A stretch of 64,000 nt of DNA, from positions 157,689 to 221,688 of the forward strand of contig NZ_SLXS01000003.1 of NCBI RefSeq assembly GCF_004340785.1, given 5' to 3'. The notes below the pieces were generated by a model. That model saw only the letters and a list, made by a program, of their open reading frames with translations. It had not been told where the DNA came from and searched no databases. Shown here in pieces: positions 7,898-43,721 of the stretch. Source of the stretch: Tumebacillus sp. BK434 (lineage in GTDB: Bacteria; Bacillota; Bacilli; Tumebacillales; Tumebacillaceae). Made by a program: the position numbers and the translations under genes. Each line of letters opens with the position of its first letter. Within the stretch, counting starts at the first letter, position 1.

Positions 7898-9151
7898 ATG
7901 GCAATCCTGCCAAAGCTCGGACGCGCCATCTATGTACTGCTGGGCGGCATTTTGTTCACCCATCTCGGGTCGTACATGCTGCTGCCGTTTTTCGCGATCA
8001 TCCTGTCCACCGAAAAAGGGCTGTCGCTCGGCGCGACAGGGCTCGTGCTCGGCGCCGGCTCGATCGCATTTTTGACCGGAAGTCTGCTCGGCGGCTTTCT
8101 GTCCGACCGCTTCGGGCGGCGGATGACGATGGTCAGCGGCCTGTTGATCCGCGGGGCCGGGCTGCTTGGCTTCATCTGGGGAGCGTCTTTTTCCTCGCTG
8201 TTTCTGACCAACCTCGTGGCCGGGGTCGGCGGCGGCATTTACGCGCCGGGCGCGAAAGCGGGCATCGCGGCGCTGGCCTCGCAAGGCACGAAGACGACCG
8301 CCTTCTCCTACCGCGGGGTGGCGGCGAACATCGGGGTAACGATGGGCCCGCTGCTCGGGACGTATCTGCACACGAAGAGCTCCACGCTGCTCTTTGGCGG
8401 CTCGGCGGTCGTCTATTTTGTCTTGGCCCTGTCACACCTGCTGCTCTTGGAGCGCGACTGCCGCGGGGAAGATTGCCCGAAAGTCGACCGCCAAGGCATC
8501 AAGCAGATCTTGACCGACCGGCCGTTCTTGTATTTTTCGGTGGTGACGATCTTTGTCTGGGCGCTGTTCACGCAGTTCGCCTTGTCGCTGCCTCTGCGCG
8601 CCGCCCAGATCGATAGCGCACGCAACATCGGCCTGCTCTTCACCGCGTCGGCGGTGCTGGTCATCTTGCTGCAGGGCACGGTGACGCGCTTTTTCACGAA
8701 ACACCTCCACCCGTTGGGGACGATGGCGATCGGCATCTTGTTGATCGGCACCGGGCTTGGCTCGGTGGCGCTGTCCACCTCGTTCTGGCATCTGGTCGCG
8801 AGCGCAGTCGTCGTCACATTCGGCCAGATGTTTGTGATGCCGACGTCTGACGCCATCGTCGCCGACCTGGCCAAGCCGGAGCAGATCGGGAGCTATTTTG
8901 GCGTGGCGGCGTTCGTCTTTGGCGCAGGGGAGGCGCTCGGCAACATCGCAGGCGGCCAACTGATGGAACTGGCGGTAGCGATCGATTATCTGGCCCTGCC
9001 CTGGCTGCTCTACGGTGCGGTCGGGCTGCTGCTCGGCGGGACGTATTACCTGCTCCGGTTGTGGCAGCCGCTGGCCCGGCCGCTCGCACCCGTGACGGAA
9101 GAGCGGACGGAACACAACACGGGCCGCTGGCGACCGAAACAAAAAACGTAG
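7898..9151 (+). CDS. MFS transporter (drug efflux type)
   Basis: A 417-residue permease with about 12 hydrophobic segments. The cytoplasmic loop 2-3 motif is GGFLSDRFGRRMTM, the family signature of drug:H+ antiporters, and GVAANIGVTMGPLLG matches the motif C region of exporters. AAGGAGGAGGTG precedes the ATG. It is monocistronic with a terminator 7 nt after its stop. The substrate is unknown. Confidence 0.92.
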   Translation: MAILPKLGRAIYVLLGGILFTHLGSYMLLPFFAIILSTEKGLSLGATGLVLGAGSIAFLTGSLLGGFLSDRFGRRMTMVSGLLIRGAGLLGFIWGASFSSLFLTNLVAGVGGGIYAPGAKAGIAALASQGTKTTAFSYRGVAANIGVTMGPLLGTYLHTKSSTLLFGGSAVVYFVLALSHLLLLERDCRGEDCPKVDRQGIKQILTDRPFLYFSVVTIFVWALFTQFALSLPLRAAQIDSARNIGLLFTASAVLVILLQGTVTRFFTKHLHPLGTMAIGILLIGTGLGSVALSTSFWHLVASAVVVTFGQMFVMPTSDAIVADLAKPEQIGSYFGVAAFVFGAGEALGNIAGGQLMELAVAIDYLALPWLLYGAVGLLLGGTYYLLRLWQPLARPLAPVTEERTEHNTGRWRPKQKT

Positions 9152-9157
9152 CATGCA

Positions 9158-9197
9158 CTGGCACAGTCGACGCAAACGAGACTGTGCCACTTTTTTC
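9158..9197 (+). terminator. terminator
   Basis: Stem TGGCACAGTC / GACTGTGCCA with an 11-nt loop, followed by a T-run. It ends the MFS gene at 7898. Confidence 0.85.
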
Positions 9198-9239
9198 AAA
9201 ACATGATATGCTGATGGTAAAGATAGAAAGGAGTGACTT

Positions 9240-10424
9240 ATGAAACCGAATCGTTTGCTTATTTTGTTCTTATCAATCAACATCATCAACTATGTCGACC
9301 GCCAGATCTTGTCCGGCGTGTTCCCGCTCTTGAAGGATCATTTTCTGCTGTCTGACGCAGCGCTCGGCCTGCTCGGTTCGGCGTTTATGATCACCTACTC
9401 CCTCACCTCGATCCCGTTTGGCAAATGGGCCGACCGCTGGCTGCCGCACAAGGTCGCGGCGATCGGCGTCGCCGTTTGGAGCTTGGCGACCGTGTCGTCG
9501 GCGCTGGCCTGGTCGTTTGCCTCCCTGTTCGTGTTCCGCGCGCTGGTCGGCATCGGCGAAGCGGCGTACGTCTCGACGGCCGGCACGATCCTGTCGAACG
9601 CCTACCCGGAGCGCAAGCGTTCGGCGATCCTCGGGCTGTTCAACCTCGGCATGCCGATCGGCGGCGCGCTGGGCGTGGTGCTCGGCGGCTGGCTGGGCGC
9701 AAAATTCGGCTGGCAGTGGGCGTTTTTCATCGTCGGGGTGCCAGGCTTGCTGCTCGCCTACCGGGCATGGAAACTGCCGCTGCGCAAGCAGGCGGTGACA
9801 GAGCAGCAGCCGAGGTTCGGCATGGATGACCTGATCCGTCTGTTTTCGAAAAACCGGCCGTTCCTGTACACCTGCCTCGGCTACGCAGGCATCTCCTTTG
9901 CTTTTGGCGCGATCGTGCTGTTCGTGCCGACGTTCTTCGAGCGCTCGTTCGGCTACTCGCTGGAAAAAGCGACGCTGCTCGCCGGCGGCCTGCAAGTCGG
10001 CGCGGGCCTGCTCGGAGCGCCGCTCGGCGGTTGGATCGCCGACCTCTGGCTGAAGCGCACGGGGCGAGGACGAGCCTACACGCTGGTCATCTCGATGCTG
10101 CTCTCCGCCGTCTTCTTGTGGGTCGGGCTGTTTATGGAAAGCTTCCTCGCGTTCTTCCTCTCCGCGTTCTTCATGCTCTGGCATGTCGGCGTGGCGACGG
10201 CGCTGGTGTTCGACGTGACCGACAAAGCGATCTGGAACACGGCCGCTGCGGCGGCGATGTTCGTGATGCACTTCCTCGGCGACATCCCAAGCCCGTATCT
10301 GGTCGGCCTGATCTCCGACCACACGTCGCTCCTGTTCGCCTTCTCGCTGCTGCCGATCCCGATGCTGCTCGCCTCGTTCTGCTTCTGGAAAGCGGGCACG
10401 TACCTGCAGCGGAGACCTGCCTGA
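9240..10424 (+). CDS. MFS transporter, spinster-like group
   Basis: A 394-residue permease starting at ATG with GAAAGGAG upstream. NYVDRQILSGVFPLL at the start is the hallmark of the spinster (Spns)/hexuronate-like MFS group, followed by SIPFGKWADRW and the R-rich motif YPERKRSAILGLFNLGMPIGGALG. The substrate is unknown; some eukaryotic spinsters move lysolipids or sphingoid bases. It is a single gene ended by a terminator that overlaps its stop codon. Confidence 0.9.
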   Translation: MKPNRLLILFLSINIINYVDRQILSGVFPLLKDHFLLSDAALGLLGSAFMITYSLTSIPFGKWADRWLPHKVAAIGVAVWSLATVSSALAWSFASLFVFRALVGIGEAAYVSTAGTILSNAYPERKRSAILGLFNLGMPIGGALGVVLGGWLGAKFGWQWAFFIVGVPGLLLAYRAWKLPLRKQAVTEQQPRFGMDDLIRLFSKNRPFLYTCLGYAGISFAFGAIVLFVPTFFERSFGYSLEKATLLAGGLQVGAGLLGAPLGGWIADLWLKRTGRGRAYTLVISMLLSAVFLWVGLFMESFLAFFLSAFFMLWHVGVATALVFDVTDKAIWNTAAAAAMFVMHFLGDIPSPYLVGLISDHTSLLFAFSLLPIPMLLASFCFWKAGTYLQRRPA

Positions 10425-30357: not shown

Positions 30358-31626
30358 CTATCCTTGAAGACTCGAGGAGTGCGTGGTGTTTGTTTTCGAA
30401 TATTGGTATACCGCAATCATTTGGACAATCGCGGTAACGGCCAGTCCCACCGACGCAATCCAATACGCACCATGAAGGCCGAAGAGATGAAGAAACCCCC
30501 CTGAAATGACAGTTCCAAGAGGAAGGATCCCACCGACTACTGTTGTCAACATGCCGATAACACGCCCGTGCAGTTTGCTCGGAACGATTTTTTGCAAAAT
30601 AGTAAAAAAGAAATTGCCGGCTACTGCACTTCCAAGTCCCATAACAAACAAAAGCAGCATGTTGACATAGAGATTTGTTATCGCCGGGTAGAGCACAATG
30701 ACGATTTGAAGTCCTGAGAAAAGCACAAATCCTTGTTCAAGCGAAATCTTTTTGCTCACCCAACTCGACAGTATGTAACCTGCTACTGCACCGGCACCGA
30801 TCGATAATTCGAGCAAGCTGTATCCTCTGGCTCCTGCATGCAAAACAACATCAGACCAAGCGGCCGCAAGAATCATATACGGGATATACAGCACATTCTC
30901 TAAAATGAAGATGGGAATGAGCAAACGCAGAATTTTTAATTCCCAAGTGAATCGAAATCCTTGTACCAAGCTGTTCCACCAGCTCAACTGTTCATTCGTT
31001 GACCCATCATGCGGATCGGTCGAAGCGGAGGAATCATCGGCAGCTCTATTTCTCAAGATGGCAAACAGCGTCAATAAAGACAGCAAAATGAGAAAACTGT
31101 AGAATCCGAAAATTACAGATACCGGAACAAAACTAAGCAATACGGCGCAAGTGGATGCGGCGATGACACCGGCAAACCGTCTCACGCCCTGAATGAGCCC
31201 ATTCCCTGAAGCCCAATCAGACTCGGGCAAGATCTCAGGCACTAACGCTTGTGAAGCAGGTGAGGAAAGATTCCCAATTACGTTCATCAACAGATAGAGA
31301 CTCGCAATCACCCAAAAATTACCACCCTTTACCCCTACATAAATCGCAAGGATCAACACTAAGAGAAAGCGGATCGACTCAAAACGTATCATCACTTTCA
31401 AACGGTCTCCACGATCCGCGATCACACCGCCAAAAACGCTGATCAGTTGGGGAATCGACATCATGAGCCCTAACCAGAGCAAATACTGTGGATCATTGGT
31501 GCTGTCTTGTACAAACCAATACAAAGCAAATGCAAATAAGTTCATTCCGATTGCGGTTCCCGACTGACCAAGAAATAGAAAACGGAAATTGCGATGAAGC
31601 AGTGCACTTTTAATAACAATCACCAC
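30358..31626 (-). CDS. MFS exporter of the RiPP locus
   Basis: A 422-residue permease of the MFS_3/EntS-like group: FRFLFLGQSGTAIGMNLFAFALYWF, then FGGVIADRGDRLKVMIRFESIRFLLV and LSSPASQALVPEIL. Such transporters often export siderophores, macrolides or peptides. It is last after the precursor, radical SAM and LanB genes and has its own promoter. Base composition is clearly AT-richer than the genes on either side, like the whole locus. The start is uncertain: GTG at 31626 or 31623, both with a weak Shine-Dalgarno. Export of, or immunity to, the RiPP is inferred. Confidence 0.88.
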   Translation of the reverse strand: MVIVIKSALLHRNFRFLFLGQSGTAIGMNLFAFALYWFVQDSTNDPQYLLWLGLMMSIPQLISVFGGVIADRGDRLKVMIRFESIRFLLVLILAIYVGVKGGNFWVIASLYLLMNVIGNLSSPASQALVPEILPESDWASGNGLIQGVRRFAGVIAASTCAVLLSFVPVSVIFGFYSFLILLSLLTLFAILRNRAADDSSASTDPHDGSTNEQLSWWNSLVQGFRFTWELKILRLLIPIFILENVLYIPYMILAAAWSDVVLHAGARGYSLLELSIGAGAVAGYILSSWVSKKISLEQGFVLFSGLQIVIVLYPAITNLYVNMLLLFVMGLGSAVAGNFFFTILQKIVPSKLHGRVIGMLTTVVGGILPLGTVISGGFLHLFGLHGAYWIASVGLAVTAIVQMIAVYQYSKTNTTHSSSLQG

Positions 31627-31717: not shown

Positions 31718-34700
31718 TTATCCCTGGCGTAAGGTTAGTTCTCGCAAAACTCTAAGCGCAAGAGCCAACAATTGCGCTTCTTTATCCCCACCGCCAATGA
31801 GCCTATTGATATGCAAATGCAGAAACGTCTCCGCCACGCGCTCAAGAAATGTTTCATTTCCTAGCCGAACAATGACCTTCCGATAATCAAAAATCTTGTT
31901 TCGGCGCTCCTCCATGATCCTCGCGATTTCCCCATGAATCCAATCTTCTTTCTCTTCTGCAAGCCGTATCAGTTGACTTCTTTTTTTGGCATATCCTTCG
32001 CGAGACGGTTTCATGGTAACAATCGATTCTAACCAACTCAATTGATCATTCCTGTCCGGAAAGAAGCACGTCATCATGTCCAAAACGGAGAAGACTCCCA
32101 AAGTCTCAAGATCAGCAGATTTACTATTCTTTGAAGAGAAGTCATGCAGAAAAACAGCAAGTCGGCTATCAGCTGCAAAGATTTTTTCAGCAGATTCAAC
32201 CGCCTCGAGTCCCCCGAAACGTTCAATTTCGCGTTCATAGGTGTCATACGACAGACGAAGCAATATCCCCTTTTGTTGCAGCGTGGATGCCCACTGAGCA
32301 AGGAGGGGGATGAGTTGATGGACCAGCAGTGAAGACTGACCATGGAATCGGAGACGAAGATGAGGTTCGGGTTCATCGAAACGAATGTAGTAAAACTCTT
32401 CGAACAATGCTTTGCTGAGGGCTTGTTCGCAAAATGCTTTTAGGTGTTTCCTCAGAAATTCATTCTGCTGACGATGCGGAATATAGAGCTTTGCGTAAAG
32501 CCACTCACTGCCTGTGAAAAAGGTTCTGTCTTTGATCTCACAGTCCGGCAGATATGTGCCCCACCTCAACTCCCTTGCTTCGGTCACGGCAGCAGCATCT
32601 GCTTTTTTTAGAAATGGAAAAACAAATTCGGTTGCATGACGCCCAACAGGCCCCTGACACCAAGACCCTTGCGGATCATAACAACATTCGGTCAAGGTGA
32701 GATACTGATGTTCTGTAAGTTTGTTGAACGCGTTCTGCAAAAGAGCGAAGTGGAGCTCATTATCCAAATCAAGCATCATCCGCTGATCTTCCTCAACAAG
32801 ATAGAGATAACGAGGTACCTTCCATTCCTCTCTCCAAGTTTGAAGATTCGAGAACTTTGACAGCCTCCATTGGGCCGGGGCGATCACGATCCTTTTGTAT
32901 CGGAGGCGTGGCAGGAATGGCGCCTGTTTCATATTCCCCCAATTCATGGGTTCCCACTGTTTAGATCGTTCGGTTGCTAGTTCCAACAGAAATCGATACA
33001 CATTTGGCACACCCACCAGATTCAACATGTGGTTGGTAACAGGAATTACTTCCCGATTGAGTGATCTTGATTTCAGGTAGAAAAATTCACCTGTACAACC
33101 GACCAGCAAATCTTCTAATGAAATCACGCGTTGATCCTGGTCCGAATGAAAGACACCTAACAGGATCTGGAAATCCCTTGAAGCCTGTGTAATGGTTAAG
33201 TTGGCATCGCGGTCTGTACATGGGAGAAAGATTACCTCGGCAAATATTGCTTCTGGCCGATGTGACTGTTCGGCCTGATGAATTTGCAGAAACTGTTCTT
33301 GCAAATTCAATTGTTCCGTCAGACTGAATCGCCCGAAACTTTTCCCCGCACCAAAAGAGCCGCTGTTTTCATTCAGCCATATCAAATAATCTCCACTGTT
33401 CAACGCTTCGACAGACTGCGCTTCAACAGAAGCATACAATTCCATGGAAAGCGGTGAGTGTGCAAACTTTGGCGGTACAGATTCAAGATTCGCTAATGTA
33501 TCGTCAGTGAGTTCGACTTCCAACTGCCGTTTTGCCACAGCCTGCATCGCCAAAGTCGTTACATACGTCTCCCGCATCCGGGATTGAGTTGCTGGCTTGG
33601 GATCGTATTCGCGATGGCCGGCAGGAAATTTGTAGAGTGCAGGAGAACCTAACCCCACCTCATCGTCCAGCAATTCTAGCAATGGCACTTCACGATCTCG
33701 ACCATATCGCTCCAAAAAATCATTTCGAAACCCTTGGAGATGCGGATTGCCAACCTGTCGGCAGGACAATCTCCAGATGATCTCGGCCGCGGCCTCCAGT
33801 TCTTTTTTGATCGATCCCGGCAGAGCGACCTCACATCCGTTTAACATGACATCCACTTGCAAAGGATGCTTCACATCTGCGAGGTCTTTCATCGATTTGC
33901 TTAGTTCCAAATATGTTGCTGTTCCTGTTCCCATTGGAATGTGATGATAGCTGGCAAGATCTCTGGAGACTGCCGCAAGCTTTTCCGTAATCTCGTCAAT
34001 CCCTTCGAGCGATACCAAAAGGTCCATCAAACGTGTGAACGGATGCTTGTTCGACAGTGAAGAACGCAATTCTGAGATCAAATATTCACGTTGAAGAAGA
34101 TCCTCTAGAAATCTGCGGACTTCCTTAAGATTGGCTTGTGTAAAACGGGCAGCTATTCGTTCCGTTAATGTTTCAAACGCGATCGGCTCTCCAGCTTCTT
34201 GTAGCGCAAATTCAACAGTTTGAGAACGATGCAGAGAACTTCTCATCAATGCGTGATGTTGCTCAGCTCTGCCGTACCTGTTCACATAGGGGAGTCTGAT
34301 CTTATTCCCCGCTAGATAGACGGCCGGGTTTGTTTGCACTCGTAATTGACGAATCAGTTCCGGCCGCGATTCAAGTTCCCTGATCAATCTCAATGTCCAT
34401 TCCATATCCGGCCTGGCATGCTTCTGATAAGAATCGAGCTGGGAGAACTGGAAAGCAGCCTGTTCCCTGTATCCGCCAACAGCGACCCCGGCAAACAGCC
34501 CATAGGGAGTGGGGCGTGTCGTCATCCTGATCAGATATCGAAGCAGGCTGTTTTCAATCTGGCTTCTTTTTCGGGGCTTGATTTCTTGTGATAGGCAGGA
34601 TAGAGAGTCATATAGTGAAGGACTTGCTGCGGCCAGCGCCTCGAGAACCGGTTTCTCTTCGAATGCACGATAAAGGTCCGCTGCCTTAACCGTATTCTCC

Positions 34701-34789
34701 CATACTTCTACTGGGAAAACGTTTGCCCGCACCAAATAAAAATCAGCAAGTCCGTATCGTCCGGCATTCCCCCAAGAAGTCTCGTTCAT
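31718..34789 (-). CDS. class I lantibiotic dehydratase (LanB), full length
   Basis: A 1023-residue enzyme with both parts of LanB. The N-terminal glutamyl-tRNA-dependent glutamylation domain (~1-740) shows RYLIRMTTRPTPYGLFAGVAVGGY. The C-terminal elimination (SpaB_C/thiopeptide-type) domain (~755-1015) shows EFYYIRFDEPEPHLRLRFHG and FLHLHINRLIGG. It should dehydrate Ser/Thr of the precursor to Dha/Dhb. GGAGG 11 nt upstream lies in the end of the radical SAM gene, whose stop is 6 nt away. No LanC cyclase or LanP protease gene follows. The gene is AT-rich relative to its surroundings, consistent with horizontal transfer. Confidence 0.95.
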   Translation of the reverse strand: MNETSWGNAGRYGLADFYLVRANVFPVEVWENTVKAADLYRAFEEKPVLEALAAASPSLYDSLSCLSQEIKPRKRSQIENSLLRYLIRMTTRPTPYGLFAGVAVGGYREQAAFQFSQLDSYQKHARPDMEWTLRLIRELESRPELIRQLRVQTNPAVYLAGNKIRLPYVNRYGRAEQHHALMRSSLHRSQTVEFALQEAGEPIAFETLTERIAARFTQANLKEVRRFLEDLLQREYLISELRSSLSNKHPFTRLMDLLVSLEGIDEITEKLAAVSRDLASYHHIPMGTGTATYLELSKSMKDLADVKHPLQVDVMLNGCEVALPGSIKKELEAAAEIIWRLSCRQVGNPHLQGFRNDFLERYGRDREVPLLELLDDEVGLGSPALYKFPAGHREYDPKPATQSRMRETYVTTLAMQAVAKRQLEVELTDDTLANLESVPPKFAHSPLSMELYASVEAQSVEALNSGDYLIWLNENSGSFGAGKSFGRFSLTEQLNLQEQFLQIHQAEQSHRPEAIFAEVIFLPCTDRDANLTITQASRDFQILLGVFHSDQDQRVISLEDLLVGCTGEFFYLKSRSLNREVIPVTNHMLNLVGVPNVYRFLLELATERSKQWEPMNWGNMKQAPFLPRLRYKRIVIAPAQWRLSKFSNLQTWREEWKVPRYLYLVEEDQRMMLDLDNELHFALLQNAFNKLTEHQYLTLTECCYDPQGSWCQGPVGRHATEFVFPFLKKADAAAVTEARELRWGTYLPDCEIKDRTFFTGSEWLYAKLYIPHRQQNEFLRKHLKAFCEQALSKALFEEFYYIRFDEPEPHLRLRFHGQSSLLVHQLIPLLAQWASTLQQKGILLRLSYDTYEREIERFGGLEAVESAEKIFAADSRLAVFLHDFSSKNSKSADLETLGVFSVLDMMTCFFPDRNDQLSWLESIVTMKPSREGYAKKRSQLIRLAEEKEDWIHGEIARIMEERRNKIFDYRKVIVRLGNETFLERVAETFLHLHINRLIGGGDKEAQLLALALRVLRELTLRQG

Positions 34790-34795
34790 ATGACG

Positions 34796-36160
34796 TTACG
34801 CCTCCGTTTTATGAAAAGTGGCTTGACGGTATCGCAAGCTCACATAATCTTCGAGTTTGCTTTTCAGCGGAGGACAGGGCCGAGCGCTTTCCTGTTCAAT
34901 CCGCACCAGTGGGCAGTATGCGCCATGGCAGATCGGGTGCAATTTGCACGATTGACACACTTTGTCGGAAAGTCCGTCCACCGACACCCACTGACTAAAC
35001 TTCATCTGATCAAGCTCCAACACACCGTCTGCATGCAGTTGCCCGACTTGATTGACCGGATTATTAAAAGCGACTGTACACTTGTAGATCATACCGTCAG
35101 AACCGATGACTAGAGAATTCGGTTTCGCTGCGTAACAGACGTTGTGATTTAGCAATGCATCCGAATACTTCTCTGAGTGAAGTCCCTGTTCGAGCCCGTA
35201 CCATGTTTCTTCCAATGCGATCAGGTTTGCATCTTTTGCTGTGCAAACAGGCAGGACTTCATCATTTTTACCGCCCCATTTCCCAACCGCATGCAAGTCA
35301 AATGTAAAGCGTGCGTCTGTTCCAAACGTCGTGACCAATTCATCCAGAAACACTCTGATATTCGGGGCATTTTCACTGGTAAAATTCATACGAATTTTGA
35401 TTTGTACGTCCAAATCAGAATCTCGGATGGAGATCAGGTTCGTCATGATTTGTTGATACGTGCCTTGCCCTCCCATTAAAATCCTGGTCTGGTCATGATA
35501 TTCTTCCGTACCGTCCACTGTAATTTGATACTTTGATACTCCCAGTTCAAACAATCTGCGAGCGCGATCGACCGTCAGCAAATATCCGTTTGTCGTCATG
35601 GTACCTAGAAAAGCTACACCGTTTGCAGTACAAATGTCATACAGTTTTTGGGATACATTCTCCACGACATCATACGCAACCAACGGCTCTCCCCCAAACC
35701 AACCTACCGTTAGAAAATCCCACTTCTCGATATTTCGTTGCACCCACTGAACCAAACTGCTTTGCAACTCTTCAGACATTTTCCCTTTCAAAAATTCCTC
35801 GTAGCAGTAAACACAGCGAAAGTTGCACTGCTCCGTAGGCATGATGATCAGTTGCTGTGAGGTTCCTTTATTGAACAACTCCTGATACTCGTGGCGGGTA
35901 TAGGCCAGCTCATTCAGATAACTCGGAACCAGAAATCCCAAATCAAATAATTTGGCGTGAGTATCCTGCAACGGGACGGCTGATTCGTAGTGATTTTGCA
36001 AGGCTGTAAAAGAAGCCGGTGACGTGATCATCTTGCCCGATGCGGTATTGTAGAGTAGGAACTTCCCTTTCGTATAATCATTCGGTTGGATTTCCACGTT
36101 ATACATCGACCACTTCACCTGATCCAAAATTGTCGTGCTTACTGCTTGGTTTTTGAGCAT
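34796..36160 (-). CDS. SPASM-domain radical SAM peptide maturase
   Basis: A 454-residue enzyme starting at ATG 36160 (MLKNQAV) behind AGAAGGGGTG; the longer open frame reads back through the precursor region and is not used. Residues 1-100 look like the N-terminal peptide-binding region of such maturases. The radical SAM cluster motif is EQCNFRCVYCYEEF (~115), with GEPLVAY-type GGE motif (WFGGEPLV). The C-terminal SPASM region has KCTVAFNN, VCQSCKLHPICHGAYCPL and a final CPP, enough Cys for auxiliary clusters. Enzymes of this type form thioethers or carbon-carbon crosslinks on RiPP precursors. It is between the precursor gene and lanB. Confidence 0.93.
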   Translation of the reverse strand: MLKNQAVSTTILDQVKWSMYNVEIQPNDYTKGKFLLYNTASGKMITSPASFTALQNHYESAVPLQDTHAKLFDLGFLVPSYLNELAYTRHEYQELFNKGTSQQLIIMPTEQCNFRCVYCYEEFLKGKMSEELQSSLVQWVQRNIEKWDFLTVGWFGGEPLVAYDVVENVSQKLYDICTANGVAFLGTMTTNGYLLTVDRARRLFELGVSKYQITVDGTEEYHDQTRILMGGQGTYQQIMTNLISIRDSDLDVQIKIRMNFTSENAPNIRVFLDELVTTFGTDARFTFDLHAVGKWGGKNDEVLPVCTAKDANLIALEETWYGLEQGLHSEKYSDALLNHNVCYAAKPNSLVIGSDGMIYKCTVAFNNPVNQVGQLHADGVLELDQMKFSQWVSVDGLSDKVCQSCKLHPICHGAYCPLVRIEQESARPCPPLKSKLEDYVSLRYRQATFHKTEA

Positions 36161-36196
36161 AGGTGCACCCCTTCTAATAGTCTTGTAAAGAGGAGA

Positions 36197-36225
36197 GGGG
36201 CCGGAAGTTACACTTCCAAGCCCCC
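36197..36225 (-). terminator. hairpin between precursor and maturase genes
   Basis: Stem with GGAAGT / ACTTCC at the loop and GGGGC / GCCCC at the base, located in the 79-nt gap after the precursor stop. Such attenuators let the short precursor gene be transcribed more than the enzyme genes. No strong T-run follows, so it would be a partial terminator or an mRNA stabiliser. Confidence 0.55.
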
Positions 36226-36239
36226 AAAAATTCATAGAA

Positions 36240-36341
36240 TCAACCGCACCCGCAGTTATTGATCGTGTTGGTTTTGTTTCGATCAGCCGGGATCTCGTTG
36301 ATCTCTTCGACTTCTTCAAATACAACGAATTGCGCCTCCAT
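36240..36341 (-). CDS. RiPP precursor peptide (33 residues) ending NCGCG
   Basis: ATG at 36341 with GAAGGAGGGAG upstream. The leader part MEAQFVVFEEVEEINEIPAD is acidic, and the last 12 residues are NKTNTINNCGCG. Thr24 and Thr26 could be dehydrated by the LanB, and Cys30 and Cys32 could form (methyl)lanthionine, sactionine or other thioether bonds with them or with neighbours. It is the first gene of the operon, directly before the SPASM maturase and LanB, which is the normal place for a RiPP precursor. Its size and the two-Cys tail differ from known lantibiotics. The core boundary is inferred. Confidence 0.85.
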   Translation of the reverse strand: MEAQFVVFEEVEEINEIPADRNKTNTINNCGCG

Positions 36342-37085: not shown

Positions 37086-38348
37086 TTACACCGCCTGCGT
37101 CTCTTCTGCCAACCGGTTGCTTTCCAACTTCCCTTTCAGCCACAGCATCAGCCCGGCGGCCGACACCACGCAGATCGCGGCCAGCATCCAGCCGCCGATC
37201 GCGCTGGGAATGAAGCCGCCGATCGCCGAGAACAGCGGGAGCGAGATCCCGTAGGCCAAACGCGACATCGACAGCCAGGTCGCGACGACGCGGCCGCGCA
37301 GCTCCGGCTTGGAGTAGGTCATCAGCGAGGTCTCGGTGATCACGTTGACCTTCGACTGGAAAATGTTCGCGAGCAGCATCACCGCGAAGAACAGATACCA
37401 GTTGTGGATGATAAACATACAGCCAAGACCGATCCCGTAGAGCATGTTCGACGGGAAGTAGATCTTGAAATACGAGCTGTCATCAAACTTGCGTTTCTTA
37501 AAGTACTGTTTGAGCAGGAAGGCCCCGATTACATACGCCACCGCCGTCACCGAATAGCCGATCCCGACGCCGGCATCGCCCGCTTTCAACTCATTGAGCA
37601 CATACAGCGGGAAGAGGATGTAGATGAAGCCGAGGCAAAAATCGCGGAAGAACTGCAGCCAGAAAACGCCGACCAGCTGCGGGCATTTTTTCACAAAATC
37701 GATGCCTTCTTTCACCTGCTTCAGGTACGGCGGGCGCACCACCGCTGGCTTAGCGAGCGGCTGATACTTGATCAGCGCAATGAAAACCGCCGACACCACA
37801 TAGGAGAACGCATCGAAATACAGGATGTTCACCGCTCCGATCCACTGTGCCAAAAACCCGCCCAAAGCGCTCGCCAGCACCATCGTGGTCGAGTTGAGCA
37901 GCGCGAACGACGAAGTCGCCGCGATCAGGTTCTGCTCTTTGAGAATCTCCGGGATCATCGACGTTCTCGCCGGCTGAAACGCTGCCGACGCAAACGCGCC
38001 AAACGCGATGCAGACGTAGATCACCCAGATGTTTTCGATCATCACCCCGGCGATGATCCCAAGCGTCGAGAACACGCGCAGGATGTCAATCCAGATCATC
38101 AGGTGCTTCTTGTTCCAGCGGTCGACGAACGGACCCATGACGATGCCGCCGAACAGCACCGGCAGGACGCTGGCGATAAACAGGCCGCCGATCGAAGCCG
38201 CATGGGGCACGATCGCATAGATGACGGAGATCAGCGCGATCGTTTTAAACCAGTCGCCAAACAGCGAAATCATCTGTCCGAAATAAAGCATGGTAAAATT
38301 GCGGTTTTTAAACGGAGACGGCAATTTCTCCGCAGTCGCAGTGGACAT
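37086..38348 (-). CDS. MFS exporter of Trp-peptide unit 1
   Basis: A 420-residue MFS_3/EntS-like permease: FKNRNFTMLYFGQMISLFGDWFKTIALISV, MGPFVDRWNKKHLMIWIDILR, AAFQPARTSMIPEIL and GRVVATWLSMSRLAYGISLPLFS. It is a close paralogue of the unit-3 MFS at 42046 (same motif at nearly every loop). It follows the unit-1 HemN-like gene by ~90 nt, with a hairpin in between. AAAGGGGGG precedes the ATG. The repeated pairing with peptide and radical SAM genes suggests it exports the modified peptide. Confidence 0.9.
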   Translation of the reverse strand: MSTATAEKLPSPFKNRNFTMLYFGQMISLFGDWFKTIALISVIYAIVPHAASIGGLFIASVLPVLFGGIVMGPFVDRWNKKHLMIWIDILRVFSTLGIIAGVMIENIWVIYVCIAFGAFASAAFQPARTSMIPEILKEQNLIAATSSFALLNSTTMVLASALGGFLAQWIGAVNILYFDAFSYVVSAVFIALIKYQPLAKPAVVRPPYLKQVKEGIDFVKKCPQLVGVFWLQFFRDFCLGFIYILFPLYVLNELKAGDAGVGIGYSVTAVAYVIGAFLLKQYFKKRKFDDSSYFKIYFPSNMLYGIGLGCMFIIHNWYLFFAVMLLANIFQSKVNVITETSLMTYSKPELRGRVVATWLSMSRLAYGISLPLFSAIGGFIPSAIGGWMLAAICVVSAAGLMLWLKGKLESNRLAEETQAV

Positions 38349-38437: not shown

Positions 38438-39799
38438 TTATTGGATGATCGCAAGCTCGGTGTTTTCGTAGAAGTCTTTGTCCTTTTGCATCACGTCGAC
38501 ATAGGCGTCGTACGTTTTCTTCTGCGCTTCCGGCAGCAGGTCGATCATGACGTGCATGTACCAGATCTTGCCGAGCTCGGTCAGCTTCAGCAAACCGTCT
38601 TCGCGCACGACCAGCCCCATTTTTTCGTGCTTCTCGATCTTCTCCCAGTACTCGGACGGCAGGTCGTGCTGACGCAGGTACTCGAGGCTGACTTTCATAT
38701 GTTTCGGGAAGTAGATCAGGCCTTTTTCTTTCGCCTGGTATTCTTTCGCGCGCATGACCGGCAAGGTGCCGTTTTCAACGGCGCGGATGTACTCGTCGGT
38801 CTTCACGCTGTTCATGTGCGACATGCCGCTCAGGTAGGAAGCGGCCGCCTGGCCGCAGCCGATGTATTCGTCTTCGTAGCGGCCGTAGATCGTCGCGCCG
38901 AATTTGAAGTCTTTGTACGCCGCATCGCCTTTGGCAAAGGTGTAGATGTGCGTCTGCTCATAGCCGTGGTTGAGCAGGTAGGAGTTGACGAATTGATGCT
39001 GGAGCACTTTGTCGTCCGCTTTCGGCGGCTCCGGCACTTTGCCGTCTTTGATCATGTTCAGGAAGCCTTTCGAGGTCACAAGGTACTCTAGCGGATAAAC
39101 GTCAACGGTGGTGGTGGACAGCTGACGCACGTTTTCGAGGTCCTCGTGCAGTTGCTCGATCGTCTGGCCCGGCAGTTGATACAGCAGGTCCATGTTGTAC
39201 GCTTTGAAGTACTTGTCGGCGAGGTCGCGGGTGCGCTTGATCTCGTCGAGCGATGCGGTCAGGTTGAACAGTTTGCGGTAGTACGGGTTAAACGTCTGCA
39301 CACCGAAGGAGATCCGGTTGACACCGTTCGCCGCCATCGCTTTCAGTTTGTCTTCCGTAGCGCTCTTCGCTTCGACCTCGAAGCTCCACTCGATGTCGTC
39401 CTTGAGCGTAAAGTTCTCCTGGATCGTCGTGCAGAGATCTTCGATCATCTTCGGGGACAAGACGGAAGGCGTACCGCCGCCGACATAGACTGCATCAAGC
39501 TTCAGCTGCTTGACGTACGGCGTGCTGGCGATGGCTTTCAACTCTTTCAGCAGCGCATCCACGTAAGGCTGCAGTTTGTCTTGGTAGTTCGTGGAGCGGA
39601 TGAACGGACAGAACGTGCAAATCGTGTCACAGAACGGAATGTGGACATAGAGCGATTTCGTTCCGGGCAGCGGCGTGCGCGCCGAGTTCAAAAATTGACG
39701 AACGGTCTCCACCGGTTCCGGCCCTTCTTGAATGAACGGGTAGAGATAGTTCCACATGTTAGGCAGCTTTTTGTAGGGCAATGCGTTATGCTGCGACAT
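38438..39799 (-). CDS. HemN-like radical SAM protein of Trp-peptide unit 1
   Basis: A 453-residue radical SAM protein with a HemN/HemW-type arrangement: YVHIPFCDTICTFCPFIRS (cluster CxxxCxxC, ~60), VYVGGGTPSVLSP, GVNRISFGVQTFNPYYRKLFN, and YNMDLLYQLPGQT. The C-terminal ~90 residues form a HemN_C-like winged helix (YWEKIEKHEKMGLVVREDGLLKLTELG). It is closer to HutW/ChuW and class C radical SAM methylases than to heme-synthesis HemN. It is paralogous to the unit-2 protein at 40296. Three tiny Trp-peptide ORFs lie directly upstream, so they are likely substrates. RBS AAGGGGG is 10 nt before the ATG. Confidence 0.88.
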   Translation of the reverse strand: MSQHNALPYKKLPNMWNYLYPFIQEGPEPVETVRQFLNSARTPLPGTKSLYVHIPFCDTICTFCPFIRSTNYQDKLQPYVDALLKELKAIASTPYVKQLKLDAVYVGGGTPSVLSPKMIEDLCTTIQENFTLKDDIEWSFEVEAKSATEDKLKAMAANGVNRISFGVQTFNPYYRKLFNLTASLDEIKRTRDLADKYFKAYNMDLLYQLPGQTIEQLHEDLENVRQLSTTTVDVYPLEYLVTSKGFLNMIKDGKVPEPPKADDKVLQHQFVNSYLLNHGYEQTHIYTFAKGDAAYKDFKFGATIYGRYEDEYIGCGQAAASYLSGMSHMNSVKTDEYIRAVENGTLPVMRAKEYQAKEKGLIYFPKHMKVSLEYLRQHDLPSEYWEKIEKHEKMGLVVREDGLLKLTELGKIWYMHVMIDLLPEAQKKTYDAYVDVMQKDKDFYENTELAIIQ

Positions 39800-39885: not shown

Positions 39886-39915
39886 TTAAGCAGCTACGAT
39901 GATCCACTCGCGCAT
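39886..39915 (-). CDS. 9-residue Trp peptide MREWIIVAA (unit 1)
   Basis: ATG with GGAGAGGGGGAG 5 nt upstream, closed by TAA after nine codons: MREWIIVAA. The ending WIIVAA is identical to the ending of the 26-residue unit-2 peptide. It is the last of three tiny ORFs before the HemN-like gene (87 nt from its start). Too short for homology proof; the shared motif plus the ribosome site are the support. A regulatory leader peptide remains possible. Confidence 0.65.
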   Translation of the reverse strand: MREWIIVAA

Positions 39916-39978
39916 GGTTGCTCCCCCTCTCCGTCCTTACGGTTCGACGCAGCAAAACGGGATTTGCAGGAAGCCGGA

Positions 39979-40038
39979 TTACGCTTCCACCACAACGACA
40001 GAAATCCACTCCGCTACCGGAAGCCATTTTTGCATCAT
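39979..40038 (-). CDS. 19-residue Trp peptide with two Trp motifs (unit 1)
   Basis: MMQKWLPVAEWISVVVVEA, starting at 40038 or the next Met, with AGAAGGGGG 4-5 nt upstream. It contains two Trp segments (KWLPVAE and WISVVVVEA) spaced like the repeats of the unit-2 peptide. It lies between the 10- and 9-residue ORFs. Proposed substrate of the HemN-like enzyme. Confidence 0.6.
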   Translation of the reverse strand: MMQKWLPVAEWISVVVVEA

Positions 40039-40090
40039 CGGCACCCCCTTCTGGAATCATTTTCGACGCTTTGATGAAACACAGAAGGAA

Positions 40091-40123
40091 CTACTCAGCC
40101 GCGACGACGATCCATTGTTTCAT
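40091..40123 (-). CDS. 10-residue Trp peptide MKQWIVVAAE (unit 1)
   Basis: ATG with GAGGAGGT 7 nt upstream, ending TAG after ten codons: MKQWIVVAAE. The motif W-I-V-V-A-A repeats that of the other peptides. It is the first ORF after the unit-1 promoter (27 nt from the -10 box), so it is well placed for strong expression. Confidence 0.65.
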   Translation of the reverse strand: MKQWIVVAAE

Positions 40124-40295: not shown

Positions 40296-41660
40296 TTAAG
40301 CAAAGACGATCAGCTCGTCGTCGAACGTAAATTCTGCCCGTTCGTTCAGCGTGGCGGAGATCGTATCGTGCAGGTGTTTCGTGCGCTCCGGCAGCATTTC
40401 GATCATCATGTTCATGTACCACGGCTGGCCTTCGCGGGTCAGCTTGAGCAGATTGCCGTCGCGGACGATCAGGCCTTTTGCTTCAAACTCATCGAGCTTC
40501 TCGTAGTAGCGGGCATCGAGCGCCAAGCGGTCGATGTCGTCGATGTCGATCGACATCCGCTTCGGGAAGTAGATCAGTCCTTTTTCGATCGCGTGGTACT
40601 CATTGACGATATCCGCGCCGAAGCCCGTCTCTTCGACCGCTCGGATGTAAGGTTCCACCTGATCGAAGTTGCGGTAGACGAGGCCGGCCTGATACGAGAA
40701 CGCCGAGAGCCCGGCACCGATGCACTCATCTTCGTAGTGGCCATACAAGGTCTCGCCAAAGACGAAACGCTTGTGCTCCGCATTCTGGCGGATAAACGTA
40801 TAGATGAACTCCTGGCCGTAGCCGTGCTCGATGAGGAAGTTCGTCACCACTTCCTGCTGGGCGACTTTCTCATAGGCGTTCGGCGGTTTCGGCAGGCGTT
40901 CTTTTTTGATCGACTGCAGGAAGCCTTTGGAGGTGATCGTGTAATCGAGCGGGTAGGCGTCGATCGAGGTCGTGTTCAGATCGACCGCATGCTGCAGGTC
41001 TTCCAGAATCTCATCGATCGACTGGCCCGGCAACTGGTACAGCAGGTCCATGTTAAACCCTTTGAAGTACTTCCCGGCCAGTTCGCGGGTGCGCTTGATC
41101 TCGTCGTGCGAGGCGGTCAGGTTAAACATCTTGCGGTATTTCGGATTGAAGGTCTGCACACCGAACGACATCCGGTTGACGCCGATCTCATGCATCGCTT
41201 TCAGTTTGTCTTCGGTCGCGCTTTTCGCCTCGACTTCGAACGTCCACTCGTAGCCTTCTTTCAGCTTGAAGTTGCTGTGGATCGTCTCGCCGATCTGGTG
41301 AATCTGCTCCGGCGAAAGCACGGAAGGCGTGCCGCCGCCGACAAAGATCGCATCGAGCGCAACGCCTTGCATGCGCGGGGTGCCGGCGATCGACTTCAGC
41401 TCTTTGACCAGCGCGTCGACGTACGGCTGAAGCTTGTCCTGATAGTTGGTGGAGCGGACAAACGGGCAGAACGTGCAGATCGTGTCACAGAACGGCACGT
41501 GCATGTACAGCGTCTTCTTGCCACGGTTCGGCGCCGGCTGCTGCAAAAACTGGCGCACATGTTCGACCGACAGCTCGCCGCGCGAAAGATACGGATACAG
41601 GTAGACCCACATCTTCGGCAGGCTGGAAAAAGGCAATTCTTTCGATCCGGAATGGGACAT
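40296..41660 (-). CDS. HemN-like radical SAM protein of Trp-peptide unit 2
   Basis: A 454-residue paralogue of the unit-1 enzyme. It shows the same YMHVPFCDTICTFCPFVRS cluster motif, FVGGGTPSVLSPEQ, GVNRMSFGVQTFNP and FNMDLLYQLPGQS, plus a HemN_C-type end (RYYEKLDEFEAKGLIVRDGNLLKLTREGQPWYM). ATG at 41660 is preferred, with AGAGGAGG 10 nt upstream; the open frame extends 16 codons further without a ribosome site. The 26-residue triple-repeat peptide gene lies 150 nt upstream in the same transcript. Reaction unknown; a C-methylation or crosslink of the Trp repeats is a hypothesis. Confidence 0.88.
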   Translation of the reverse strand: MSHSGSKELPFSSLPKMWVYLYPYLSRGELSVEHVRQFLQQPAPNRGKKTLYMHVPFCDTICTFCPFVRSTNYQDKLQPYVDALVKELKSIAGTPRMQGVALDAIFVGGGTPSVLSPEQIHQIGETIHSNFKLKEGYEWTFEVEAKSATEDKLKAMHEIGVNRMSFGVQTFNPKYRKMFNLTASHDEIKRTRELAGKYFKGFNMDLLYQLPGQSIDEILEDLQHAVDLNTTSIDAYPLDYTITSKGFLQSIKKERLPKPPNAYEKVAQQEVVTNFLIEHGYGQEFIYTFIRQNAEHKRFVFGETLYGHYEDECIGAGLSAFSYQAGLVYRNFDQVEPYIRAVEETGFGADIVNEYHAIEKGLIYFPKRMSIDIDDIDRLALDARYYEKLDEFEAKGLIVRDGNLLKLTREGQPWYMNMMIEMLPERTKHLHDTISATLNERAEFTFDDELIVFA

Positions 41661-41810: not shown

Positions 41811-41891
41811 TTACGCCGCTACGATGATCCAGTTGCGCTCTTGCACAACGATCCAGTTGCGTTCAACCGCAATGATCCAGTTCTTTTCCAT
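41811..41891 (-). CDS. 26-residue peptide with three tandem Trp repeats (unit 2)
   Basis: ATG with GGGAGGTG 7 nt upstream, ending TAA. After MEK the peptide consists of three units: NWIIAVER, NWIVVQER and NWIIVAA. The DNA repeats with a 24-nt period (AACTGGATC each time). A tandem-repeat substrate peptide with one Trp per repeat is what multi-core RiPP precursors look like. It sits under a near-consensus promoter and before the HemN-like gene. Products of nearly the same sequence are encoded in unit 1. Confidence 0.8.
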   Translation of the reverse strand: MEKNWIIAVERNWIVVQERNWIIVAA

Positions 41892-42011: not shown

Positions 42012-42047
42012 AGAAAAGAAAAGAACCCTGATCGAATCAGGGTTCTT
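42012..42047 (-). terminator. terminator of Trp-peptide unit 3
   Basis: Minus-strand stem AAGAACCCTGAT / ATCAGGGTTCTT with a TCG loop, followed by TTCTTTTC. It closes the unit-3 MFS gene. Confidence 0.85.
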
Positions 42048-43311
42048 ACGCTTGCAATGTCGTTTTTTCTTTCATCTGGCTGGTGAGCCTTGCTTTCAGC
42101 CACGGATAGACGCACAAGGCTGAAATCACGCAGACGGCAGTCAAGAGGTAGCCGCCGACAGCGATCGGGATGTAGCCGCCGATCACCGAAAACAGCGGGA
42201 GCGAGATCGCATAGGCCAGGCGCGACGCAGTCAGCCACGAGGCGACGACGCGGCCGCGATTGTCCGCCCGCGAGTAAGTCATCAGCGAGGTTTCGGCGAT
42301 GATGTTGACGCCTTGCGAGAAAATGTAGGTCACGACCAGCGCGACGAGGAACCAGTACCAGCCCGTCATCGAAAACATGACGCCGAGCCCCACGCCGTAG
42401 ATGATGTGGCAGGGCAGGAAAATTTTGAAAAAGGCGCTTTCCTCAAACGGCTTGCTTTTGAAATACCACCTGATCAGCCACGCCCCGATCAGATAGGCCA
42501 CCGCGGTCATCGAATAGCCGATGCCCATGCCGGTATTGCCCGTCTGCACCACTTCGAGGATGAAGACGGCGAACAGGATGTAGACATAGCCGAGCACAAA
42601 GTCACGGGCAGCGGTGATCCAAAAGACGGCGACCAGCTGCGGCGTGGCTCTGACATAGTCATAGCCTTCCTTCACCTGCTGCCAGTACGGCAGGCGCTGC
42701 TTGACCTCTTTTTGCAGCGGCTGGTAGCGCATCAGCCAGATGCAGAAGGCGGCGAACAGATAGGAGAACGCATCGAACAGCATGATCGGGTACGGTCCGA
42801 CCCAATCGGCGACAAAACCGCCCAAAGCGCTGGCGACGACCATCGTCACCGAGTTCAAGATCGCGAACGACGACGTCGCTTTGACGATCTGGTTCTCTTG
42901 CACGATCTCCGGAATCACCGCCGTGCGCGCCGGCTGGAAGGCGGCAGAAATGATGCTGGAGATCACCATCAGGCCGTAGATCACCCAGATGTCCGCCAGA
43001 TAGACGCCCCAGACGATCCCAAGGGTCAGCACGAAGCGCAGCAGGTTGGTCCAGATCATGATCTTCTTTTTGTTCCAGCGGTCGACCAGCGGGCCGACGA
43101 AGATGCTGCCAAACAGCGAAGGCAGAATCGTGGCGATAAACATGCCGCCGACCGTCGAGGCGGAGGGATGCAGATCGTAGAGCACGACGATCATCACCAC
43201 GCCGCGGAACCAGTCGCCAAACAGCGAGACGAGCTGGCCGAGGTAGAGCATCGTATAATTGCGATTGCGGAACAGGGAAGGCTCTTTGGCTACCGCTTTG
43301 GGACTGCTCAT
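42046..43311 (-). CDS. MFS exporter of Trp-peptide unit 3
   Basis: A 421-residue MFS_3/EntS-like permease, paralogue of the unit-1 exporter: FRNRNYTMLYLGQLVSLFGDWFRGVVMIV, VGPLVDRWNKKKIMIW, AAFQPARTAVIPEI, GRVVASWLTASRLAYAISLPLFS. ATG at 43311 with AAAGGAGG 9 nt upstream; the open frame extends 13 codons further. It follows the fused peptide/HemN_C ORF by 68 nt with a hairpin between. Confidence 0.9.
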   Translation of the reverse strand: MSSPKAVAKEPSLFRNRNYTMLYLGQLVSLFGDWFRGVVMIVVLYDLHPSASTVGGMFIATILPSLFGSIFVGPLVDRWNKKKIMIWTNLLRFVLTLGIVWGVYLADIWVIYGLMVISSIISAAFQPARTAVIPEIVQENQIVKATSSFAILNSVTMVVASALGGFVADWVGPYPIMLFDAFSYLFAAFCIWLMRYQPLQKEVKQRLPYWQQVKEGYDYVRATPQLVAVFWITAARDFVLGYVYILFAVFILEVVQTGNTGMGIGYSMTAVAYLIGAWLIRWYFKSKPFEESAFFKIFLPCHIIYGVGLGVMFSMTGWYWFLVALVVTYIFSQGVNIIAETSLMTYSRADNRGRVVASWLTASRLAYAISLPLFSVIGGYIPIAVGGYLLTAVCVISALCVYPWLKARLTSQMKEKTTLQA

Positions 43312-43335
43312 GAGAATTCCTCCTTTATCAGGTAC

Positions 43336-43372
43336 GCGAAAAGCCAGCACACAGGGGGTTCCCGCGTGCTGG
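43336..43372 (-). terminator. hairpin between HemN_C fragment and MFS gene (unit 3)
   Basis: Minus-strand stem CCAGCACGCGGG / CCTGTGTGCTGG (one G-T pair), followed by CTTTTCG. The position and the CCAGCA motif match the unit-1 hairpin, as expected for duplicated units. Confidence 0.6.
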
Positions 43373-43379
43373 ATGCCGC

Positions 43380-43721
43380 TTATGAAAGCATGATCAATTC
43401 GTCGTCAAACGTGAAACCGGTGCGCTCGTCCAGCTTCTCCGTGCCGAGGTCATGCAAGGCGCGTATCCGCTCCGGAAGCATCTCGATCATCATGTTCATG
43501 TACCACGGCTGGCCTTCGCGGATCAGCTTGACCTTGCCGTCTTTCCGCTTGATCAGGCCTTTCGCTTCGAACTCGACGAGCTTCTCGTAGTAGCGCACGT
43601 CGAGCTCTTGGCGGTCGATGTCGGCGATGTCCATCTCCAGCCGTCTGGCGAATGCAGCGGGACTCGTGTCCCCCGATCCGCCCACTTCCCGCGGCTCGAT
43701 AACCCAGGAGTTGCGTTCCAT
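43380..43721 (-). CDS. Trp-peptide start fused to a HemN_C domain (truncated radical SAM gene, unit 3)
   Basis: A 113-residue ORF with GGAGACGGGAG upstream of the ATG. It begins MERNSWVIEPRE, resembling the Trp peptides (ERN-W-I pattern), then a Gly/Ser linker, and from about residue 27 matches the C-terminus of the unit-2 HemN-like protein almost residue for residue (DRQELDVRYYEKLVEFEAKGL; EGQPWYMNMMIEMLPER; FTFDDELI). The cluster-binding catalytic domain is missing. The simplest origin is a deletion that joined a peptide gene to the end of the following radical SAM gene. The intact frame, ribosome site and promoter mean it may still be made, perhaps as a binding or regulatory protein. Confidence 0.75.
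   Translation of the reverse strand: MERNSWVIEPREVGGSGDTSPAAFARRLEMDIADIDRQELDVRYYEKLVEFEAKGLIKRKDGKVKLIREGQPWYMNMMIEMLPERIRALHDLGTEKLDERTGFTFDDELIMLS

Follow-up and report, generated by a model that had tools for sequence, protein, structure and literature searches.

Two radical-SAM genes in the window (the whole 64,000-nucleotide stretch of the Tumebacillus sp. BK434 genome analyzed here, G000:C3:157689-221688) are accompanied by micro-ORFs of 9 to 26 codons, each containing at least one Trp-Ile-x-Val-type core. We put at about 0.77 the probability that these micro-ORFs are the mini-precursors of a RiPP-like family, the enzyme recognizing the core directly and most likely modifying its Trp, with subsequent trimming and export by an MFS protein. 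Since the trio of tiny genes, radical-SAM enzyme, and exporter recurs in all 11 bacteria examined that have this enzyme, the peptides very probably serve as starting material for an undescribed modified-peptide family. This reading draws on the anatomy and conservation of the ORFs, their coding-type evolution, their constant linkage to enzyme and MFS genes, and the conservation in the enzymes of the residues that contact a second SAM molecule.

On the minus strand, the elements are arranged in the order remnant, MFS gene, three-core ORF, rSAM2, three micro-ORFs, stem-loop, rSAM1, and MFS gene (table 1). A preliminary description of this DNA had reported three micro-ORFs at 39886-40123, each with its own purine-rich ribosome site, in front of one radical-SAM gene. 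The micro-ORFs and their ribosome sites are all present, with the sizes reported. However, the window contains two full-length radical-SAM genes, whose products are 56% identical, and the second has its own three-core micro-ORF, which had been overlooked. In the degenerate third cassette, for which profile and Pfam searches gave no family hit, a deletion has joined a micro-ORF-like start, MERNSWVIEPRE, to the C-terminal portion of an rSAM2-like enzyme. Radical-SAM and MFS proteins are the only enzymes and transporters of the window's cassette; there is no P450, no dedicated peptidase was found there by profile and Pfam searches, and no RiPP recognition domain (PqqD/RRE) was hit by Pfam on the two enzymes. 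Phage and plasmid origins of the window copy were both rejected, as phage records gave only distant HemN-type hits and plasmids no DNA match. A distinct RiPP-like cluster is located apart from the micro-ORF cassettes, at 31718-36341 on the minus strand. In addition to a small ORF, it encodes a SPASM-type radical-SAM protein resembling TIGR04463, with a score below the cutoff, and a LanB-type dehydratase with a thiopeptide-type C-terminal domain; judged by sequence, 30358-31626 apparently encodes an MFS protein.

Table 1. Features of the micro-ORF cassettes and of the separate RiPP-like cluster (positions in the window)
Feature	Position	Strand	Characteristics
Small ORF of separate RiPP-like cluster	36240-36341	minus	MEAQFVVFEEVEEINEIPADRNKTNTINNCGCG
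MFS exporter of cassette 1 (predicted)	37086-38348	minus	MFS_1/MFS_3
rSAM1	38438-39799	minus	HemN/HutW-like radical-SAM protein, 453 aa, CDTICTFC motif
Stem-loop	39830-39857	minus	GGCTGACAGGGG-GCGA-CCCCTGTCAGCC, without U-tract, between micro-ORF 3 and rSAM1 start
Micro-ORF 3	39886-39915	minus	MREWIIVAA, 9 aa + stop, single core; SD-like gagaggggg
Micro-ORF 2	39979-40038	minus	MMQKWLPVAEWISVVVVEA, two cores, KWLPV and EWISV; SD-like gaagggggtg
Micro-ORF 1	40091-40123	minus	MKQWIVVAAE, 10 aa + stop, single core; SD-like gaggaggtg
rSAM2	40296-41660	minus	Full-length radical-SAM gene; start 41660, or 41708 with upstream ATG
Multi-core micro-precursor ORF (putative)	41811-41891	minus	MEKNWIIAVERNWIVVQERNWIIVAA, 26-mer, three tandem NWI(I/V) cores; 5' of rSAM2
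Second MFS exporter (predicted)	42046-43350	minus	MFS_1/MFS_3
Degenerate third cassette	43380-43721	minus	Residual match to rSAM1 residues 364-449

As the preliminary description had held, the shared motif is not expected by chance. Among 20,000 dinucleotide shuffles of the 401-nt leader, 2.0% contained one or more SD-preceded short ORFs carrying W[ILVFM]x[VLI], 0.025% contained two, and none contained three. Over nine relative loci (292 kb, both strands summed), 32 ORFs of at most 45 aa combine an SD with this motif, and 26 of them fall inside the radical-SAM/MFS cassettes according to a manual reading of the list. These shuffles and background counts led us to reject a chance origin of the micro-ORFs. 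To avoid circularity, we also listed, for both strands of the cassette gaps at 11 loci and without any sequence filter, all SD-preceded ORFs of 7-45 codons. This listing comprises 50 ORFs, 33 of which contain Trp; all but one of the 33 are of the core type, the sole exception being MWTVYWWSFSTQPHLYP. In the gaps of the window's cassettes, the four ORFs of this kind found on either strand are all of the core type.

Tumebacillus avium AR23208, the nearest public genome found, was used for comparison. It harbors the same three micro-ORFs and a four-core ortholog of MEKNWIIAVERNWIVVQERNWIIVAA. Micro-ORF 2 of the window differs from its T. avium counterpart by eight synonymous and one nonsynonymous codon changes and by a shifted stop (P ~5e-5 for at least 8 synonymous changes out of 9 under a simple independent-substitution model); by this pattern, it is evolving as a coding sequence. 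The ortholog of micro-ORF 1 in T. avium, MKQWIIIAAE, has a GTG start, and the counterparts of micro-ORF 3 are MREWIVVAA in T. avium and MREWIIVAA in G005. Micro-ORFs 1 and 3 together show three internal changes relative to T. avium, all between Ile and Val, and the pooled test of synonymous changes gives P ~0.0015. Every Trp is retained between the two genomes, and interior replacements are confined to Ile, Val, and Ala. Comparative genomics, proposed in the preliminary description as a check, also finds the Trp codons and the W-x-x-V core retained in relatives.

Using a profile built from rSAM1 and rSAM2, we identified the enzyme clade in the seven genomes of the window's family (G000-G006), in three other Bacilli (G363, G204, and G240), and on a Cytobacillus kochii plasmid. 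The profile detected no further clade members in 398 evenly drawn Bacillota genomes and none beyond those already known in the orders of G363 and G204; as this wider sampling of Bacillota added no members, the clade seems to be rare. Core-type micro-ORFs flank the enzyme in all 11 genomes or records in which the clade was found (14 enzyme genes), so that a conserved-core peptide is encoded beside a candidate modifying enzyme in each, as is the case for RiPPs. Around the enzyme and MFS genes, each has between one and about nine ORFs of 9-35 codons that follow an SD and carry a W-(I/L/V/F)-x-(V/I/L) core; some have single-core ORFs in tandem, some multi-core ORFs, and some both kinds. G005 carries about nine tandem ORFs, including MIKEWLTVVEA twice, MIKEWIPVVEL, and MREWIIVAA, the first two being located in 118-nt units that are 87% identical. 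In the same genome (L039, minus-strand coordinates 8510-8617), the ORF MREWLSIVNVRLLRRSFMKGGGNMREWILVGVTIE resembles two adjacent micro-ORFs joined by read-through and looks like an intermediate towards multi-core precursors. G003 encodes MREWIVVVEN, MREWIIVVEN, MREWIVIVEN, and MRKDWLVVV, all 3' of the MFS gene on the same strand. In G001, G002, and G004, multi-core ORFs such as MSKWISVEPLWIAVEPLWLPVVPVAE lie beyond the MFS gene on the opposite strand. The more distant records encode MSNEWISVKNEWIAV twice (G363), MRQVNEWVAL (G204), MRQSTEWFTV (G240), and MKKEWVALKNEWVAL (C. kochii plasmid). A DinB-superfamily protein, possibly part of the cassette, is encoded 3' of the MFS gene in G363 (L036 8987-9439) and C. 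kochii (L047 7631-8113), and a DUF4760 protein occupies this place in G004.

The 32 core ORFs contain 56 cores. Position +1 is Ile, Leu, Val, Phe, or Met in all 56 and Ile or Leu in 51, position +3 is Val, Ile, or Leu in 51, and position -1 is Glu in 27. As these counts are anchored on Trp, its presence there is no independent evidence; that evidence comes from the unfiltered listing and from the retention of Trp between genomes. In these peptides of 9-35 aa, the first Trp is preceded by one to seven residues, and no leader is common to them. RiPPs without a leader exist, and the missing leader does not exclude this assignment. The suggestion that the micro-ORFs might be direct, leaderless RiPP-like substrates is strongly supported by comparative genomics: Trp and the core persist in relatives, the core shifts between single-core and multi-core ORFs, and it is always next to this enzyme clade. 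As such substrates, they had been placed among the shortest RiPP-like precursors; they are not the shortest known, since those of biarylitides have five residues (PMC13417212, PMC12951456).

The best family match of the two enzymes is TIGR04107 (ChuW/HutW), with 219.7 and 202.8 bits against a curated cutoff of 400. Pfam detects Radical_SAM alone in rSAM1 and Radical_SAM plus HemN_C in rSAM2. Among solved structures, HemN and the class C methylase NocN are the best relatives, and an AlphaFold model of rSAM1 of moderate confidence (mean pLDDT 69.9) has its best fold match in HemN 1olt. In a tree with some long branches and uncertain deeper joins, the 14 micro-ORF-associated enzymes form a single clade (support 96/96) apart from HutW. 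A role as a HutW heme-degrading enzyme was rejected, as the scores reach about half the cutoff, the clade is separate, and the neighbors are micro-ORFs and MFS genes instead of heme genes. The CX3CX2C motif is conserved throughout the clade. Y51, R162, and D204 are invariant and correspond to Tyr34, Arg153, and Asp196 of NocN, the Tyr stacking on SAM II and its Arg and Asp ligands, as mapped via alignment to NocN from the residues described in PMC12871812. The Arg contacting the SAM I carboxylate (R171 in NocN) is replaced by Leu in all clade members and is Arg in the HutW and HemW rows; because of this replacement, the chemistry may differ from that of NocN and HemN.

The sister clade of these enzymes has members located beside P450, speD/speF, or cobalamin-type genes; among them, Trp mini-ORFs were seen only in G003 and Alicyclobacillus. 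In G003 (L057, G003:C20:312000-330000), MENQPIIWKNVEPIIWKNAAEPIIWNNEVAPIIW, with four PIIW repeats, is encoded on the minus strand at 9117-9221, directly 3' of a sister-clade radical-SAM gene, and MERNILIIW at 9386-9415 on the same strand, just past this gene. Both represent a second, Trp-terminal core type. On plasmid p1 of Alicyclobacillus sp. TC (NZ_CP044435.1; L048 3824-3856), the unannotated 10-residue MRDIVWDIVW, with two DIVW repeats, precedes a sister-clade radical-SAM gene and an MFS gene. No CDS is annotated over the C. kochii micro-ORFs either. The sister-clade genes on plasmids of Klebsiella pneumoniae (L049) and Glaesserella parasuis (L050) are beside cytochrome P450 and MFS genes, with speD also near in G. 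parasuis, and the one on a Xenorhabdus plasmid (L055) is beside speF; no Trp mini-ORF was seen at these three loci. The G003 and Alicyclobacillus mini-ORFs suggest that Trp mini-peptides without a leader may be more widespread in the enzyme group. On the Rhizobium leguminosarum plasmid pRL23b4 (L056 2423-6225), a coproporphyrinogen-oxidase-like radical-SAM gene adjoins genes for an FAD oxidoreductase and trpS, possibly a Trp-related pathway.

In the mechanism that we propose, the micro-ORFs would be translated into peptides made of one to four copies of [E/N/K/L/Q]-W-[I/L/V/F]-x-[V/I/L] without a leader, and the adjoining HemN/HutW-like enzyme would bind the core directly, most likely acting on Trp. 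From two SAM molecules, the enzyme would generate a SAM-derived methylene radical, and addition of this radical to the indole would result in C-methylation or a different one-carbon transfer. The carbons attacked by class C enzymes are sp2 carbons, an indole included, and NosN and NocN are active on a substrate mimic without a leader (PMC12871812). As Trp is the fixed aromatic residue, this indole chemistry makes Trp C-methylation or a related one-carbon reaction our first guess; conservation and enzyme class both point to Trp as the target. Host peptidases would trim the product, and the MFS protein of the cassette would export it, a role we propose because MFS genes are linked to the enzyme clade. 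Copy number could increase by tandem duplication of micro-ORFs or by the joining of cores within one ORF.

The modification could instead concern Ile or Val. We regard it as possible, if rather doubtful, that the ORFs are substrates whose Ile/Val residues the enzyme crosslinks, epimerizes, dehydrogenates, or converts to a cyclopropane, or in which it links W to V over the conserved W-x-x-V spacing, instead of making a one-carbon change on the indole. The strong preference for aliphatic residues at +1 and +3 and the altered SAM I Arg are consistent with such chemistry, and TvgB converts Val to cyclopropylglycine in a repeat precursor (PMC9062424). However, TvgB belongs to a different, multi-cluster radical-SAM group (PMC9062424), whereas the enzymes described here match only Radical_SAM/HemN_C in Pfam, and characterized class C enzymes typically put a one-carbon unit on sp2 carbons (PMC12871812).

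That the peptides are unmodified secreted signals similar to SHP pheromones, or leaderless antimicrobial peptides, the enzyme acting elsewhere, is improbable. They are short and hydrophobic, with Ile/Val-rich C-termini, and encoded beside an exporter, but no pheromone receptor gene recurs beside the cassettes in the neighborhoods of the relatives, the multi-core ORFs lack a signal sequence, and the enzyme is the one constant partner besides the MFS protein.

In all ten loci where micro-ORFs precede the enzyme gene, a strong stem-loop separates the last of them from it (folding z from -1.5 to -4.6; -3.0 for the rSAM1 spacer of the window). Its sequence is unrelated between distant loci, which fits a role as a stoichiometry element providing more precursor than enzyme, and we consider this role likely. 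The same arrangement, with ORFs 5' of the enzyme gene and a stem-loop between them (window, G005, G006, G363, G204, G240, and C. kochii), would also suit the Trp-rich regulatory leader envisaged in the preliminary description, in which ribosome stalling at Trp or WIIV controls the radical-SAM gene. We consider such a leader very unlikely: attenuation requires a 5' position on the same strand and is excluded in G001-G004, whose ORFs lie downstream of the MFS gene, in three of these genomes on the opposite strand, and we therefore reject it as a general explanation; a single Trp codon is present in 18 of the 32 ORFs, the Trp codons of multi-core ORFs are about 6-8 apart, and most stem-loops lack a clear U-tract. 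A T-box or riboswitch was rejected, as Rfam gave no leader or T-box at E<=1, save one irrelevant weak hit.

The proposed mini-precursors and their HemN-like enzyme share features with several known systems: minimal precursors are known from biarylitides, repeat precursors from TVG, and class C tailoring of RiPPs from NosN/NocN. Like NosN and NocN, whose target is an indole in the context of a peptide, the enzymes have the HemN fold, the CX3CX2C motif, and the SAM II Tyr, Arg, and Asp. However, NosN and NocN tailor a thiopeptide with a 37-residue leader, whereas here the precursor is leaderless, the cassette offers no candidate maturase other than the HemN-like enzyme, and Leu takes the place of the SAM I Arg. 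As in biarylitides and other minimal-precursor P450 RiPPs, the genes are below gene-caller size, the 18-bp gene of the biarylitide 5-mer being too short for gene callers (PMC13417212). Biarylitides rely on P450 crosslinking of aromatic residues, in contrast to the radical-SAM enzyme, hydrophobic W-x-x-V core, tandem arrays, and multi-core ORFs observed here. The TVG system (TvgA/TvgB, poly-cyclopropylglycine) likewise combines a repeat-core precursor with a radical-SAM enzyme and is thought to give several small products (PMC9062424), but it has TVGG repeats in one precursor, an enzyme of another radical-SAM group, and an additional oxidase and peptidase/transporters. In the open-access literature searched, we found no description of leaderless tandem micro-genes with a HemN/HutW-like protein as sole candidate maturase. 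We slightly favor the view that these cassettes represent a RiPP class of their own. Its primary maturase would be a HemN/HutW-like enzyme of class C type, acting without leader or recognition domain on free 9-35-residue peptides from tandem micro-genes, single- and multi-core forms being interchangeable, and yielding a tiny Trp-derived metabolite exported by an MFS protein.

Genes so short are skipped by standard annotation, and the micro-ORF family therefore escapes ordinary genome mining. Should the peptides be substrates, the HemN family would include a leader-free peptide maturase whose substrates, of about 10 residues, are cheap to synthesize, and a group of proteins now named after heme enzymes would have a function that can be tested. 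The tandem arrays and fused ORFs also illustrate how separate micro-genes may give rise to multi-core precursors.
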